NCBI RefSeq assembly: GCF_900659865.1 | Contig: NZ_LR213791.1 | Coordinates: 1 to 42,281 of the forward strand | DNA length: 42,281 nt | Direction: 5' to 3' | Origin: Hyella patelloides LEGE 07179 | GTDB taxonomy: Bacteria > Cyanobacteriota > Cyanobacteriia > Cyanobacteriales > Xenococcaceae | Part shown: piece by piece, positions 30,079 through 35,326 of the stretch | How the letters are laid out: every line of letters begins with the position of its first letter | Numbering within the stretch: position 1 is the first letter of the stretch | Made by a program: the position numbers and the translations under genes | Notes under the pieces: model-generated | Told to the model about the DNA's origin: nothing | The model's database searches: none | The model's input: only the letters and a program-made list of their open reading frames with translations

Positions 30079-31068
30079 TTATTCAGCTATAGTCGCTGCT
30101 GATTTTTGCCAATTAGTAAAATTATGCTGCACCCAATCCATACCTACCTCATTATTTAACTTAATTTTTTGTGGTGCATTAGCATAAATTTTATTTAAAA
30201 TATCTGTATCTTGTTCGACAACAACTTTACTAAGAGCGAGAAATTGATTTTGTAATAATTTTGCCAAGGGATTGCTAGCTTCAGCAAATAACAAGATATA
30301 GGTTCTGGTTTTAGTTAAAGTTTCGGGAACAAAAAGATGGCATTGAGCAATTTTGCCAAAAGGGCTATTACCGTGAAAAATAACCAAAGAAGGAAAATAG
30401 TTTTCTAAATGAGCTTGAATAACATCGGGAAGTAAAAATTGATTAGGTTGTTTGAGCTTTTCCCAAAAGGTTTTAGGTTTGGTAGGAGTATTAAAAAAAG
30501 CCTCGGAATGATAGCCATTATCGATAAATTTTTCAAATCTGACTTCGGTAATTTCAAATAAGTCTCGATGCGTACCATTTTGATGATTATAATCGTGCAT
30601 GATTAATAGCATCGATCGCAAGTCTGTCTTGACACTGGTATTTGCGGTATAGCCAATAAATTCATAGTCTCGATTAATCTTCTCTAAAATATCGGGAATA
30701 GGTATTTTAGGTTCATAACCGCCATAAGACCAAATAAAATCATCTTTAATTATCAATTCTAAAGGCTGCATTTGAGATAAGATTTTTTTCTCTGTTCCTG
30801 GTAAAATAGTGCAACCATCGCTATCAAATTCCAAAGCATGAAACGGACAAACAACTTTACTCTTGCCATCTGGTTGAGTTTCGCACCATCCTTCTGATAG
30901 CATTGCACCCATGTGAGGACAAGTATTTGGTAAAGCTTGAACTTTTTCTGTGCAATCTTTCCACATTACATAGTCTTTGCCATAAAGAGCAATTTTGTGT
31001 GGTTTATTTGTTGTGAGCATCGATTTATGCGCTAATAGCCAAGGCGCACCTTCTAACATAGACATCAC
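30079..31068 (-). CDS. Rieske non-heme iron oxygenase (alpha-subunit type)
   Basis: A 329-residue soluble protein. The Rieske [2Fe-2S] ligands are C50-P-H52 and C74-P-F-H77. The mononuclear iron site is visible as D159-Y-N-H162 with H167 (DYNHQNGTHRDLF), the usual DxxHx4H pattern. The C-terminal domain is about 150 residues, short compared with aromatic dioxygenases and nearer to Rieske monooxygenase/demethylase types. It should hydroxylate or demethylate an organic substrate using electrons from a ferredoxin or reductase, neither of which is encoded nearby. It is divergent from the TetR-like regulator with 200 bases between. Confidence 0.88.
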   Translation of the reverse strand: MMSMLEGAPWLLAHKSMLTTNKPHKIALYGKDYVMWKDCTEKVQALPNTCPHMGAMLSEGWCETQPDGKSKVVCPFHALEFDSDGCTILPGTEKKILSQMQPLELIIKDDFIWSYGGYEPKIPIPDILEKINRDYEFIGYTANTSVKTDLRSMLLIMHDYNHQNGTHRDLFEITEVRFEKFIDNGYHSEAFFNTPTKPKTFWEKLKQPNQFLLPDVIQAHLENYFPSLVIFHGNSPFGKIAQCHLFVPETLTKTRTYILLFAEASNPLAKLLQNQFLALSKVVVEQDTDILNKIYANAPQKIKLNNEVGMDWVQHNFTNWQKSAATIAE

Positions 31069-31243: not shown

Positions 31244-31266
31244 TGACATATTGTTCACTTTTGTCA
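31244..31266. promoter_or_regulatory. Possible operator (TGACA...TGTCA) in the Rieske/TetR spacer
   Basis: TGACA at 31244-31248 and TGTCA at 31262-31266 form an inverted repeat with a 13-base spacer just before the regulator's start codon. TetR regulators usually repress from a palindrome between divergent genes, so this is a candidate site. The half-sites are short and the assignment is weak. Confidence 0.25.
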
Positions 31267-31268
31267 AG

Positions 31269-32153
31269 ATGAAGCCCCAAAATAATTTACTCCGTCGTCA
31301 ACCCCAACAAAAACGCTCTCAAGAGCGTGTCGAGAACATTTTAGATGCAGCAGCCATAGTATTTGATGAGGTGGGTTTTGAAGCTGCGACCACTCATGCG
31401 ATCGCTGCTCGTGCCAATACCGCAGTAGGCTCACTCTATCAATTCTTTCCTGATAAATTAGCGATTTTTAATGCTTTGGAGTTACGTCACGTCGAGCGCG
31501 TTTATGTTGTCTGGGACAAACTATTACGCCCTGAAGTCATACAGCTACCATTTGCTGAGTTTATTCACACTATGACAACGCAGTTTCAAAAACTGTTTGA
31601 GCAACCCACTTCACGCATTATCTTTGTACAGTTTTTTACCTCACCAACCATATTCAAAAACATTGACCATAGCTTTACCCAAGAAGCAATTCAATTTACA
31701 GCCAAACTATTACAAAGTCGCAATCCAGCTTTAGAAGATAAGCGCAGTTTGCTCCTAGCAGAAATTTGCGTTCATGGCATTAACACTCTAATATTGCTAG
31801 CATTACGCAGCGATCAAGCACACAGTCAAGAAATTTTTATAGAAATAGAAATTTTACTCAAAGCTTATCTAAAAGATAATATTGGGGATGAAGTGATTAA
31901 TAATAATTCTTTTCCGCCATTAGAAAAAATAGCAAAGCAATACAAACTTAACTCTCGTCAAAGCTTAATTTTAAAATACGCCAGCAACAATTCAGAAATA
32001 ACGATCAAAAACTGCGAAGCGATGTTTCCCGATATATCTCGGCGCACTATACAAAGAGATTTGAAAACTATGATCGAGCAAAAATTACTGCTTCCTCAAG
32101 GTAATACAGATCGGCGTTGTTATAGTATCAATCAAGAGTTATTAAACTTATGA
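31269..32153 (+). CDS. TetR-like regulator with C-terminal winged helix
   Basis: A 294-residue protein. The N-terminal TetR helix-turn-helix (about 8-58) reads RSQERVENILDAAAIVFDEVGFEAATTHAIAARANTAVGSLYQFFPDK (given here as family wording over 31320-31460). A helical ligand domain extends to about 195. Beyond it, residues about 215-294 form a second DNA-binding module: LNSRQSLILKYASNN, then ISRRTIQRDLKTMIEQKLL and NTDRRCYSI, a DeoR/Fic-type winged helix. I chose the ATG at 31269; an in-frame TTG at 31251 is less likely. It is divergent from the Rieske gene and probably controls it. Confidence 0.85.
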   Translation: MKPQNNLLRRQPQQKRSQERVENILDAAAIVFDEVGFEAATTHAIAARANTAVGSLYQFFPDKLAIFNALELRHVERVYVVWDKLLRPEVIQLPFAEFIHTMTTQFQKLFEQPTSRIIFVQFFTSPTIFKNIDHSFTQEAIQFTAKLLQSRNPALEDKRSLLLAEICVHGINTLILLALRSDQAHSQEIFIEIEILLKAYLKDNIGDEVINNNSFPPLEKIAKQYKLNSRQSLILKYASNNSEITIKNCEAMFPDISRRTIQRDLKTMIEQKLLLPQGNTDRRCYSINQELLNL

Positions 32154-32241: not shown

Positions 32242-33711
32242 TTAGTTCAGTGATATCTCTCTTAATCGATCGTAAATGAGGTTTGCATCCTTCAAAAGAG
32301 AAGCAGATAAAGCATTTGTACCAATTTCTCGTGGTCTAGGTTGACGTATCCCAGATGCCGATGAAACCAATGCGTCAGGATCGCAACTTTCCACTACCTC
32401 TGCCAAGCTTCTGAGTCCGCCTATGGGATTTTCACACAACGCCTCGTAGTCCAAAAAGTTAAGAAAATCAGCGTTTTCTTGCAGAAGATACTTGTAACTA
32501 GCAACCCAATACTCCAACCAGAAAGCTAGAGATCGAGCATCTCTGGACTCACGTCGGTCAAACCAACCATCGAAATCTATTGGGCGTAAATTTTGTCCGA
32601 AATCGTAATGACCTATTGCTTTCATGTAATCTGAAGCAAACGAATCCGCCTCGTGAATCTGCAAGAAATTAAGGTGCTGCTGTAGTAAAGAGCTTGCATG
32701 GTGTAGGGGATGTCGAAATGGAATGATAATCACTGAATCTGGGAAGAGTCTTTTCAATATCCTGGTGCGTGCAATATTGGCGTTGTTCTTCGATACATAA
32801 CGTACAGAAGGTGCTGAATTTCCACGACGCAGTAAAATAATCTTACGCAGATGAGAATCGAAAAACTCATTAAATTCTAAATTCTCTTCATTGTCCCAAG
32901 GAATAATCCGATCTTTTTGGTAGTGACGTTTCCAGAAAGTTTTCCAGACCACTTCTTCTAATGCTTCGTAGCTGTCTGGGCTGATTTTCATGCCATCACC
33001 ATGAGCGCGCTCCGTTGACTCGACGGTTTGCTGAAAACTTTGAGCAAAACGATTCCATAAACAGGGAATTAGCACAAACGGCATATCGCGGTAGCAGTGA
33101 GAGGCAAACTCAGGTAAGTCTGCACAGCATTCGAGAAGTAATGTTGTTCCAGCGCGAGGAAGTGCAGTAATGAAAACAGGTCGTTCTGTTTGACAATTGG
33201 CAAGCTGCTTAGAAAACATTGTATCTTCCACATCGGCAATTGCTATCTGTGCAGTGTAAGTATTAAACGCCAACTGATGCAAAGTTCGATCCAGATTTGA
33301 GTAACTACTTGCTTGAGTCTCACTATTGGGGTGTTGCTTACGAGGTTTGATACCAAGTACCACAAAAACCAGTACACTACTGAAGATGAGAAATGCTGGT
33401 GAAAAAGTTGTGTCCAAAGTAAAAGCCAGAGAAAGCCAGCCAAAGCGATCGCCAAACCACAAAACTCCCAAGGGAATCAAAACAGCGAACGCTCCTCCCA
33501 AAGCTAGAGTAAAGAAAGATCCAAACAATTTCTGGGAATTCTTTTGAAGCTTCACCTCTTTCTCTTCATCACTCAGTTGGGGAGAACGAATAATATTTAA
33601 AGATTGATTAGCTACACGTACAACGCCCCTGCTTTTGTTAACCAGTCCCAAAAGCTGAAAGAGAAAAACAAAGCCCGCAACCAGAATTATTGCGCCGATC
33701 CACTGGCTCAT
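32242..33711 (-). CDS. Membrane-anchored sulfotransferase
   Basis: A 489-residue protein. It has hydrophobic segments at about 4-24, 66-86 and 104-121, then a cytoplasmic-type sulfotransferase domain. The PAPS 5'-phosphosulfate loop is FITALPRAGTTLLLE (PRAGTT at 185-190). The 3'-phosphate-binding element is VIIPFRHPLHHASSLL. It should transfer sulfate from PAPS to a hydroxyl of a lipid, glycan or protein. Its ATG overlaps the stop of the 78-residue gene by four bases (ATGA, 33708-33711), so translation is coupled. It is last in a three-gene operon with an arylsulfotransferase-like protein. Confidence 0.88.
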   Translation of the reverse strand: MSQWIGAIILVAGFVFLFQLLGLVNKSRGVVRVANQSLNIIRSPQLSDEEKEVKLQKNSQKLFGSFFTLALGGAFAVLIPLGVLWFGDRFGWLSLAFTLDTTFSPAFLIFSSVLVFVVLGIKPRKQHPNSETQASSYSNLDRTLHQLAFNTYTAQIAIADVEDTMFSKQLANCQTERPVFITALPRAGTTLLLECCADLPEFASHCYRDMPFVLIPCLWNRFAQSFQQTVESTERAHGDGMKISPDSYEALEEVVWKTFWKRHYQKDRIIPWDNEENLEFNEFFDSHLRKIILLRRGNSAPSVRYVSKNNANIARTRILKRLFPDSVIIIPFRHPLHHASSLLQQHLNFLQIHEADSFASDYMKAIGHYDFGQNLRPIDFDGWFDRRESRDARSLAFWLEYWVASYKYLLQENADFLNFLDYEALCENPIGGLRSLAEVVESCDPDALVSSASGIRQPRPREIGTNALSASLLKDANLIYDRLREISLN

Positions 33712-33944
33712 TCTTCTTCTCCTTGTTGATCCTTTTTCGACTGCTTACGCTTCTGCAAAAGCCTTTTGATGGGATACCACAGAAAGCCAAAAATAGCAGC
33801 AATTACACCAGCGATAATAGCAAGCAACGCCCCCAGAGCAGCTATTCCCGCACCCGGCCCTACATATGCCATAGCAGGTTGGGGTACCAAGATGACCAAA
33901 AAGAGAGCAAACATAAAAATGCCGACAAATGATGATTTCTTCAT
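33708..33944 (-). CDS. Small membrane protein (78 aa) of the sulfotransferase operon
   Basis: Residues 1-26 look like a signal peptide ending PAMA. Then YVGPGAGIAALGALLAIIAG begins a Gly/Ala-rich transmembrane helix (about 32-57), and the tail is highly charged (KRLLQKRKQSKKDQQGEEE). The start lies 53 bases downstream of the arylsulfotransferase-like stop, and the stop overlaps the sulfotransferase start. Similar VGPGAG-type small proteins accompany polysaccharide or sulfotransferase genes. The molecular role is unknown; a membrane adaptor is a guess. Confidence 0.8.
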   Translation of the reverse strand: MKKSSFVGIFMFALFLVILVPQPAMAYVGPGAGIAALGALLAIIAGVIAAIFGFLWYPIKRLLQKRKQSKKDQQGEEE

Positions 33945-33997
33945 TTTTTGAGCCTCACAAAACTAATTATTGATAAATTTTTGCTTATGTTATGGTT

Positions 33998-35326
33998 CTA
34001 TTTTTCACTATTAAAATTATTAAATAGATAAGTGTACTCAGAGGGTAAACGTTGCACCTCTCCCACAATGCCGACAACTCCTTCGTCAACATAATTGATG
34101 TATTGCCAGACAACTTCACCCTGGCGATCGATTTCAAAACCTCTCCCAGCCTTAGATTCTGTAATCAGCAAATTACCATTTGGTTGCCACTGGTGTTTCC
34201 CCATGACGTTAGTGAAAAAAGGTTTTTCTACAGTTCCTTCAAAAAACACATCGGTTGTATTTTCTTTTGCTGACATGATTAAAATACGACTTTGGCGAAG
34301 ATTTGCTTCAACAGCACTAATATTATTGTTGTCAAAAACAGAAAAACTATTTCCATCTATAAAGTCAGGGTCATGCTGCCGTACAACTTGACCTATGGAA
34401 ATAAACTTAATTTTCTCGCTCTCTATATTAAAGACAAAAACTGTATTAATATTACGAAGTGAAACTAGAACATCGCCTTGCTTAAAGAATCCTTCCTCTA
34501 ATTTGCTGGAGAAAGGTTCGACATCATTTAAGTGCAGTATGTCACTATTACCAAGTATTAGACCATCACCTTTTATTTGTGTAGACTCATTGTTAAGAGT
34601 ACCTTGATAGAGAAGACCCGTATAGCCATTTTTTTGCAGGATATCCGCAACAGACCACTCTCTTAAAATTTCACCTTCTGGTGACACTTCCAAAATTGTT
34701 TCTTCGTAGAATGGCGGTATCAGATGAGGAAAACGAGAATTTCTTCTGGTGTGATATCTACTACCAGATACCCACAAGTTACCATCATCATGCTTGTGAA
34801 TTGAATGGTGTGTTTGATAAGGTAAACGCCAGACAACTTCTCCTTTGCGGTCTATACGAACCAAGCCTAGATATTCAAAATTAAACACTAAGTCGCCGTT
34901 TTCCATAACGACCGCTCCGTGAATATTAGTACCTGGTTTTTCCTTCGGAATATCATTTTCAGGCAAATGTTGCGCATCAGGCCAGATCTCGAACCAGTCG
35001 ATATCCCATTTGTGAACTATATTACCTTCTATATCAATGATTTCAACAACTATTTGGCGATCTGCTGCCATTTTTGTCACTAAGGTCAAACCTTCGGATG
35101 TTTTAGCACTATTACTGTCCACCTCAAAAGGCAGTTTATTCAAACGGATATAATACCAAGGAAGTTTTTCAGAATTACGCTCGCGAATTTTTTCCCACCC
35201 TTTTGCTGCTTCATTGTAAAACTGATGGGGGAAAAACTGAAATTCTCTGACGAGATAACCAACATTAAAACTGATAAACACGCTTGAAATAAGGAAAAAG
35301 ATTAAACTGAATCGTTGCGAAGTCAT
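33998..35326 (-). CDS. Arylsulfotransferase-like beta-propeller protein
   Basis: A 442-residue protein anchored or exported by a hydrophobic N-terminus (about 8-25). The rest is a beta-propeller with the family's hallmarks: GNIVHKWDID, NIHGAVVMENGDLVFNFEYLG, THHSIHKHDDGNLWVSG, LHLNDVEPFSS ... FFKQGDVLVSLRNINTVFV and VVRQHDPDF. This is the Arylsulfotran_2/ASST-like family. Classical ASST moves sulfate between phenols in the periplasm through a His. Several family members probably lack that activity. It is first in an operon with a small membrane protein and a PAPS-type sulfotransferase, linking it to sulfation by context. Confidence 0.85.
   Translation of the reverse strand: MTSQRFSLIFFLISSVFISFNVGYLVREFQFFPHQFYNEAAKGWEKIRERNSEKLPWYYIRLNKLPFEVDSNSAKTSEGLTLVTKMAADRQIVVEIIDIEGNIVHKWDIDWFEIWPDAQHLPENDIPKEKPGTNIHGAVVMENGDLVFNFEYLGLVRIDRKGEVVWRLPYQTHHSIHKHDDGNLWVSGSRYHTRRNSRFPHLIPPFYEETILEVSPEGEILREWSVADILQKNGYTGLLYQGTLNNESTQIKGDGLILGNSDILHLNDVEPFSSKLEEGFFKQGDVLVSLRNINTVFVFNIESEKIKFISIGQVVRQHDPDFIDGNSFSVFDNNNISAVEANLRQSRILIMSAKENTTDVFFEGTVEKPFFTNVMGKHQWQPNGNLLITESKAGRGFEIDRQGEVVWQYINYVDEGVVGIVGEVQRLPSEYTYLFNNFNSEK

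Follow-up and report, generated by a model that had tools for sequence, protein, structure and literature searches.

A candidate two-step membrane sulfation module shared by Hyella patelloides and bacteria of several phyla

A 42,281-nt stretch of contig NZ_LR213791.1 of Hyella patelloides LEGE 07179 (the window; all coordinates are window positions) carries an operon of three genes on the minus strand (Table 1). In the order of transcription these encode an arylsulfotransferase-type propeller (ASST), a small membrane protein of 78 residues (SMP) and a sulfotransferase (ST) of the type that uses 3′-phosphoadenosine 5′-phosphosulfate (PAPS); all three together are referred to as the module. The genes had been proposed in a first-pass annotation of this DNA, and they are confirmed by their coordinates and by the Pfam matches of the ASST (PF14269, 121 bits against a cut-off of 27; PF05935, 72.1 against 24.2) and of the ST (PF13469, 46.8 against 27). 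The SMP of the window has no Pfam family above the cut-off. The overlap of the SMP stop with the ST start, also part of that annotation, was seen, and an ATGA or GTGA junction from SMP to ST, or to a separate gene for the membrane domain of ST, is present in 12 of the 28 loci examined. The 4-base overlap suggests translational coupling, but a fixed stoichiometry between the small protein and the enzyme, as had been claimed, does not follow from it.

Table 1. Features of the operon in the window
Feature	Position	Strand	Description
ASST	33998..35326	-	442 aa, first gene of operon; Pfam PF14269 E 8.4e-35, PF05935 E 5.6e-20
SMP	33708..33944	-	78 aa; YVGPGAG motif; hydrophobic segment; basic C-terminal tail
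ST	32242..33711	-	489 aa; Pfam PF13469 E 5.7e-12
ATGA shared by SMP stop and ST start	33708..33711	-	
Codon of ASST His318	34373..34375	-	counterpart of E. coli AssT sulfohistidine His436
ST N-terminal membrane domain, residues 1-124	33340..33711	-	transmembrane segment, charged helical hairpin, two transmembrane segments (hydrophobicity, model)

Searches were carried out with each of the three proteins. The full set was found at 34 loci, the window included, in Cyanobacteria, Planctomycetota, Desulfobacterota, Omnitrophota, Alphaproteobacteria and Gammaproteobacteria. When 60 genomes (that of the window and its relatives) were searched for ST, five matched: the genome itself, three relatives with the full set, in one of which (G024) contig ends interrupt the ST, and one with a 61-residue fragment that has a stop and lies at a contig edge. 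When genome_contigs (84,980 species) was scanned with an ST alignment, 15 loci came up; four are cut by contig ends, and the 11 uncut ones, from three Okeania, Leptothoe, two Planctomycetota, Desulfocapsa, Desulfobacteraceae, Omnitrophota, Alteromonadaceae and Colwellia, all carry the three genes. With ASST as the seed (E <= 1e-30), 9 of 274 genomes of Gammaproteobacteria, the class of the Colwellia genome, were matched, and without the seed genome all eight have SMP and ST nearby. The same search in Desulfobacterota matched 7 of 297 genomes, and SMP and ST lie nearby in three of the six other than the seed genome. In 294 Planctomycetota genomes searched with SMP (E <= 1e-6), both further stand-alone SMPs adjoin ASST and ST. 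Seven plasmid records match ST and six of them hold all three genes; the other (L137) has ST, a membrane-domain gene and two ASST-like genes, with no SMP detected. Independent annotation of the plasmids gives the genes as 'arylsulfotransferase family protein', 'hypothetical protein' and 'sulfotransferase'. Many module genomes are metagenome bins, in which single contigs could be misassigned; cultured carriers include Rhodobacter sp. CZR27 and Novosphingobium capsulatum. The genes are thus not neighbours in this genome only, a case that the first-pass annotation had named as speaking against it, and their co-occurrence at 34 loci in several phyla rules out chance neighbours.

Samples of 292 genomes from the window's own phylum gave four matches to the ASST profile (E <= 1e-10), namely the window's own genome and three partial, distant matches, and two to the SMP profile (E <= 1e-6), of which one is again the window's genome and the other an SMP fused to another enzyme. 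Cyanobacteria rarely carry the module and are not alone in having it, and the notion of a cyanobacterial pathway has to be given up. As a control, seven PF05935 loci were inspected: three are the module itself (L077-L079), and the other four (L073-L076, with flanks of about 1.5 kb) are without SMP or module ST. Of the 30 PF00685 matches in the Hyella genome, the 8 best loci (L001-L008) likewise carry no ASST, SMP or module ST. Carriage of the module by phages was rejected, as the phage collection gave no ASST match.

The genes stand in the order ASST-SMP-ST, in one direction, in 26 of the 34 loci. The expected conservation of order across distant genomes was borne out there and failed in the other eight: ASST follows ST in L024, L133 and L134, ASSTs flank both sides in L020 and L022, ST is divergent from ASST and SMP in L026, and ASST converges on SMP and ST in L081 and L082. 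Distances among ASSTs and among STs, compared over 25 loci (L095 was left out of the ASST set, L018 and L101 out of the ST set, being too short), are correlated with an r of 0.918, and none of 10,000 permutations reached as high a value. ASST and ST trees were built from 27 and 26 rows with the plasmid loci excluded. They have the same deepest split and phyla are mixed in both, and the set is therefore read as having been transferred as a unit. The cyanobacterial rows form one group in each tree (support 84/86 and 100/98), and within this group the trees disagree, for example in the placement of L024 and L021. Extra ASST copies were also observed, two in tandem beside one ST at L016:10486-13313, in a relative of the window, and three around one ST at L020:8194-14706, in Okeania.

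The model of the window ASST has a predicted local distance difference test (pLDDT) score of 84.5. Its best match in the PDB is Cpz4 (9kf6; Z 28.5, root-mean-square deviation 3.2, 312 aligned residues, 20% identity), followed by E. coli AssT (Z about 25), 3no2, a protein of unknown function (22.5), and other propellers (at most 21). The active-site residues of AssT, namely His252, His356, Asn358, Arg374, His436 and Thr501, are those listed in PMC13426309, and the first five were mapped through printed alignments and motifs rather than superposed coordinates. The chains of 3elq (wild-type AssT) and 4p04 (the H436N mutant) differ at the histidine of a QHT motif, and this histidine was therefore identified as His436. 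His356, Asn358 and Arg374 were located by counting along the printed 3elq alignment, and His252 from a further alignment. The QHT of AssT corresponds to QHD in Cpz4 and in the module ASSTs, and for the later motifs Cpz4 was used as a bridge to the latter, the RN, QHD and FDN motifs being matched in the printed alignment. The counterparts in the window ASST are H173/H174 (His252), H265 (His356), N267 (Asn358), R291 (Arg374) and H318 (His436). All 34 module ASSTs retain H173/H174, H265, N267 and H318, a count that includes L095 and six plasmid loci. Loss of the catalytic histidine was ruled out by the comparison of 3elq with the H436N mutant, its counterpart H318 being kept. Hydrophobicity indicates a single N-terminal anchor (residues 5-27) and, together with charge, points to a membrane-anchored propeller lying outside the cytosol. 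The module ASST thus resembles E. coli AssT in its propeller fold and in these active-site counterparts, whereas AssT is larger and has an N-terminal beta-sandwich domain, and no PAPS-type partner is named for it in the available part of PMC13426309.

The ST model (pLDDT 80.2) has STF9, STF1 and tyrosylprotein sulfotransferases as its best Foldseek matches. The residues of the PAPS site, R186 and G188 in the 5′-phosphosulfate loop and R333 and S341, the Arg and Ser for the 3′-phosphate, are kept in 32 of 32 testable loci, as L018 and L101 among the 34 are too short. The further residues R235, H237, D239 and K308 are likewise kept in all 32 loci that are long enough. The spacing of 8 between R333 and S341 is that of the human SULTs. 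Hydrophobic segments were found at residues 1-27, 61-88 and 99-124 of ST. From hydrophobicity and charge the protein is predicted to be anchored in the membrane with its catalytic part facing the cytosol, as the ST domain must be if PAPS is to be reachable. The earlier picture of one exported enzyme and one anchored enzyme facing the cytosol is thereby supported.

The membrane domain of ST has no Pfam family over the cut-off, and an Oxa1/YidC-like layout, considered from the order of its helices, was dropped for want of such a match. It occurs as a separate gene of 123-131 codons at L029, L032 and L089 and on the plasmids L135, L136 and L137; at L032 two other genes lie between it and ST. A membrane protein of 238-272 residues takes its place at L081-L083, L086 and L088, and these proteins were aligned among themselves only. 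The ST of L027 begins without the membrane domain (a separate gene was not sought there).

The hydrophobicity profile of SMP has two overlapping segments followed by the basic tail. Read by eye, the protein would consist of a signal peptide and one membrane helix, the signal-peptide-like start ending before Y-V/I-G-P-G. Y27, G29, P30, G31, A42, G53, F54, W56, P58 and R61 are invariant in an alignment of 14 members, and all 14 module genomes searched have one copy. SMP matches in Planctomycetota were seen in 25 of the 294 genomes: the seed, the two stand-alone proteins and 22 in which the YIGPGAG segment is part of a larger protein (L100, L102-L106, L108-L123), the four of these that were scanned belonging to the PF01663 phosphodiesterase family. 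At L124:418-1707, in a 1.9-Mb genome of the window's phylum, an SMP-like segment starts a PF04464 glycerophosphotransferase protein. Since the same membrane segment occurs in the Planctomycetota phosphodiesterase-family proteins, the SMP sequence is not specific to sulfation. Segments of this type may serve more generally as a membrane part of enzymes that act on envelope molecules, and the role of SMP here, holding or passing a carrier, is a guess. A weak ASST-like gene was noted beside the SMP-segment fusion at L100 and at L108.

That the module is an envelope sulfation set, as the first-pass annotation had it, is well supported by comparison, through the conserved co-occurrence and the conserved active sites; the lack of a conserved active site that would have counted against it was not observed in either enzyme. 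How the two enzymes would work together is suggested by the caprazamycin system of Streptomyces, in which a PAPS-type ST and an ASST also serve one pathway. There, the PAPS-dependent Cpz8 produces phenolic sulfate esters, and the PAPS-independent Cpz4 takes these as donors (PMC4257720), and Cpz4, the nearest solved structure to the module ASST, prefers sugar hydroxyls of glycosides (PMC13426309). With moderate confidence we take the module to be a membrane-bound, two-step sulfation relay, a version of the Cpz8/Cpz4 route. In the first step the cytosolic ST would move a sulfuryl group from PAPS to a carrier that is soluble in the membrane, aryl or phenolic in nature and perhaps a quinol; this step is assigned because of the ST fold and its conserved PAPS site. 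The transmembrane domain of ST and SMP would hold the carrier or pass it over the membrane. In the second step, assigned because the AssT active site is conserved in ASST, the anchored ASST outside would take the sulfuryl group from the carrier onto His318 and hand it to an acceptor in the envelope or outside the cell, with the hydroxyls of glycan sugars as the likeliest target. A relay with the membrane between its two steps would fit: ASSTs need an aryl sulfate, and outside the membrane no other member of the set would provide it.

The module differs from the caprazamycin system in its ST membrane domain, its ASST anchor and SMP, and several of its loci have an envelope-glycan setting in place of the antibiotic one. 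A further reading, which is more tentative and falls somewhat short of probable, is that the module represents an undescribed and widespread transmembrane sulfuryl relay through an aryl lipid such as a quinol, which SMP and the membrane domain would pass across the bilayer for ASST to sulfate glycans outside. No description of the set of ASST, SMP and ST was found in the open-licence papers that were searched. In bins of Hydrogenedentota and Sumerlaeota, ASST and sulfotransferase genes in one organism have been taken as a sign of sulfated polysaccharide, with no adjacency, small membrane protein or relay mentioned in the available part of that report (PMC10866078).

The genes beside the module give some indication of the acceptor. 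The glucan genes opgG and opgH (MdoG and MdoH) lie near it at L080, L083 and L087, in three gammaproteobacterial genomes. At L080:6394-13356, opgG, opgH, ASST, SMP and ST all run in one direction, so that genes of osmoregulated periplasmic glucan synthesis are co-directional with the module; at L083 and L087 MdoH follows ST, and MdoG lies beyond on the other strand. The known substituents of osmoregulated periplasmic glucans are phosphoglycerol, succinyl and similar groups. Sulfation of such a glucan is possible at L080, and among the open-licence literature matches listed none has sulfated glucans of this kind in its title. PhyH and flippase genes are neighbours of L029, and L032 has their homologues beside it together with a glycosyltransferase; glycosyltransferases are also found by L025 and L134, and L135 is accompanied by genes for sugar transferase and epimerase. 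At L095 a gene for adenosine 5′-phosphosulfate (APS) kinase, which serves PAPS synthesis, adjoins ST. At the remaining loci, that of the window among them, no glycan or PAPS-supply neighbour was recognised, neighbours not having been scanned systematically. As glycan neighbours are present at some loci and none was recognised at others, a glycan acceptor is likely, though not a uniform one.

Several observations weigh against the relay. The correlation of ASST and ST distances partly reflects shared ancestry. ASSTs of the wider family occur without SMP or ST at L084, L090 and L091, and also at L085, L092 and L094, which are on short contigs or near contig ends. The counterpart of R291 is kept in 33 of the 34 ASSTs, being Leu in L101, and E252 of ST in 31 of 32, being Asp in L136. 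Thr501 of AssT has no conserved counterpart, the nearest position, 375, varying over the 29 rows of an alignment from which rows with fewer than 300 aligned residues (L093, L095, L096) were dropped; it was aligned by hand and the position is uncertain. Profile comparison of the module ASSTs with canonical AssT gave a weak local alignment of 86 columns. Type III polyketide synthase (PF00195), the source of the carrier in the Cpz system, passes the cut-off in 7 of the 26 module genomes, in some weakly; it was rejected as a common carrier source, and no carrier gene is shared. The periplasmic glucan was rejected as a general acceptor, since 5 of the 27 module genomes have MdoG. Next to the module, no gene for glycan assembly was recognised in the window, at L016 or at L017 (for the last two from translated starts only), nor in the annotation adjoining it on the plasmids L133, L136, L138 and L139, a polysaccharide deacetylase lying about 4 kb away at L139.

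The relay was weighed against other explanations. Two sulfotransferases had been envisaged at the outset; both types were confirmed, and they need not act in parallel, the Cpz8/Cpz4 precedent favouring a relay. In the parallel arrangement both would serve one glycan pathway, ST sulfating a lipid-linked repeat unit or glycolipid from cytosolic PAPS and ASST moving or adding sulfate outside with an unrelated aryl sulfate as its donor, without any relay linking the two. PAPS-type sulfotransferases of cyanobacteria lie mostly in exopolysaccharide clusters, and the xss system, which makes synechan in Synechocystis, works with no ASST named (PMC8205485). It is, like the module, a case of cyanobacterial surface sulfation with PAPS-type sulfotransferases; unlike the module, it has two of them in a Wzx/Wzy cluster, and 'arylsulf' is absent from the main text of that report (PMC8205485). 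Glycan genes adjoin several module loci as well. The parallel arrangement would, however, leave the tight co-inheritance of ASST and ST (r 0.918) unexplained and provides no source of an aryl sulfate donor for ASST, and ST keeps its membrane domain and SMP even where no glycan cluster was recognised. A donor-acceptor relay is the more likely, because the closest precedent is Cpz8 with Cpz4, and parallel action is considered unlikely.

It is less probable still that a sulfated membrane lipid, quinone or small phenol is itself the end product, in detoxification or as a signal lipid, with ASST reversing or redistributing the sulfation. The fusion of ST to a membrane domain and the presence of the mycobacterial STF9 and STF1 among its closest solved folds would suit such a product, and a sulfated quinone is known in sulfomenaquinone, which is linked to Stf3 (PMC7081687). 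Against this, Cpz4, the nearest structure to ASST, sulfates a sugar (PMC13426309). The co-directional opgG and opgH at L080, and their presence nearby at L083 and L087, also argue for a glycan product. A propeller serving as a non-enzymatic binding or scaffold protein, with ST acting alone, would agree with the many beta-propellers that are not enzymes and with the loss of the Thr501 counterpart, but is very improbable given that ASSTs with as little as 24% identity to that of the window still have the nucleophilic His and the rest of the mapped sulfuryl-site residues.

The genes scanned around the operon in the window encode an HNH-like protein that stays under the Pfam cut-off, a regulator of the TetR type, a Rieske protein and a short-chain dehydrogenase, and none of them has a visible link to the module. 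The TetR-type regulator (31251-32153, plus strand) has an extra C-terminal stretch with weak helix-turn-helix similarity below the cut-off, and it is adjoined by the Rieske-domain gene (30079-31068) on the opposite strand. Unlike in the AssT-DsbL-DsbI operon, no Dsb gene was recognised beside the window operon in the scan of flanking genes. A DsbB-like gene, recalling that operon, was observed near the module at L082:4636-5139 and L081:4890-5387; the one at L082, which alone was scanned, scores 145 bits where the NCBIfam cut-off is 168. The Hyella genome as a whole has 30 PF00685 sulfotransferase matches and one match to the window's ASST, and of the 30, C603 and C604 seem to be a single region that was assembled twice.

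PAPS is cytosolic, which makes it a question how bacteria sulfate molecules beyond the membrane. The module is a concrete candidate answer to how sulfation outside the membrane is achieved, and it would explain surface sulfation in some bacteria. If the relay is true, the natural donor of one branch of ASSTs would be named, a sulfate counterpart of the lipid-linked sugar and phosphate donors would be at hand, and the product in some gammaproteobacteria would be a sulfated osmoregulated periplasmic glucan. The module might also be put to use for sulfating polysaccharides enzymatically.

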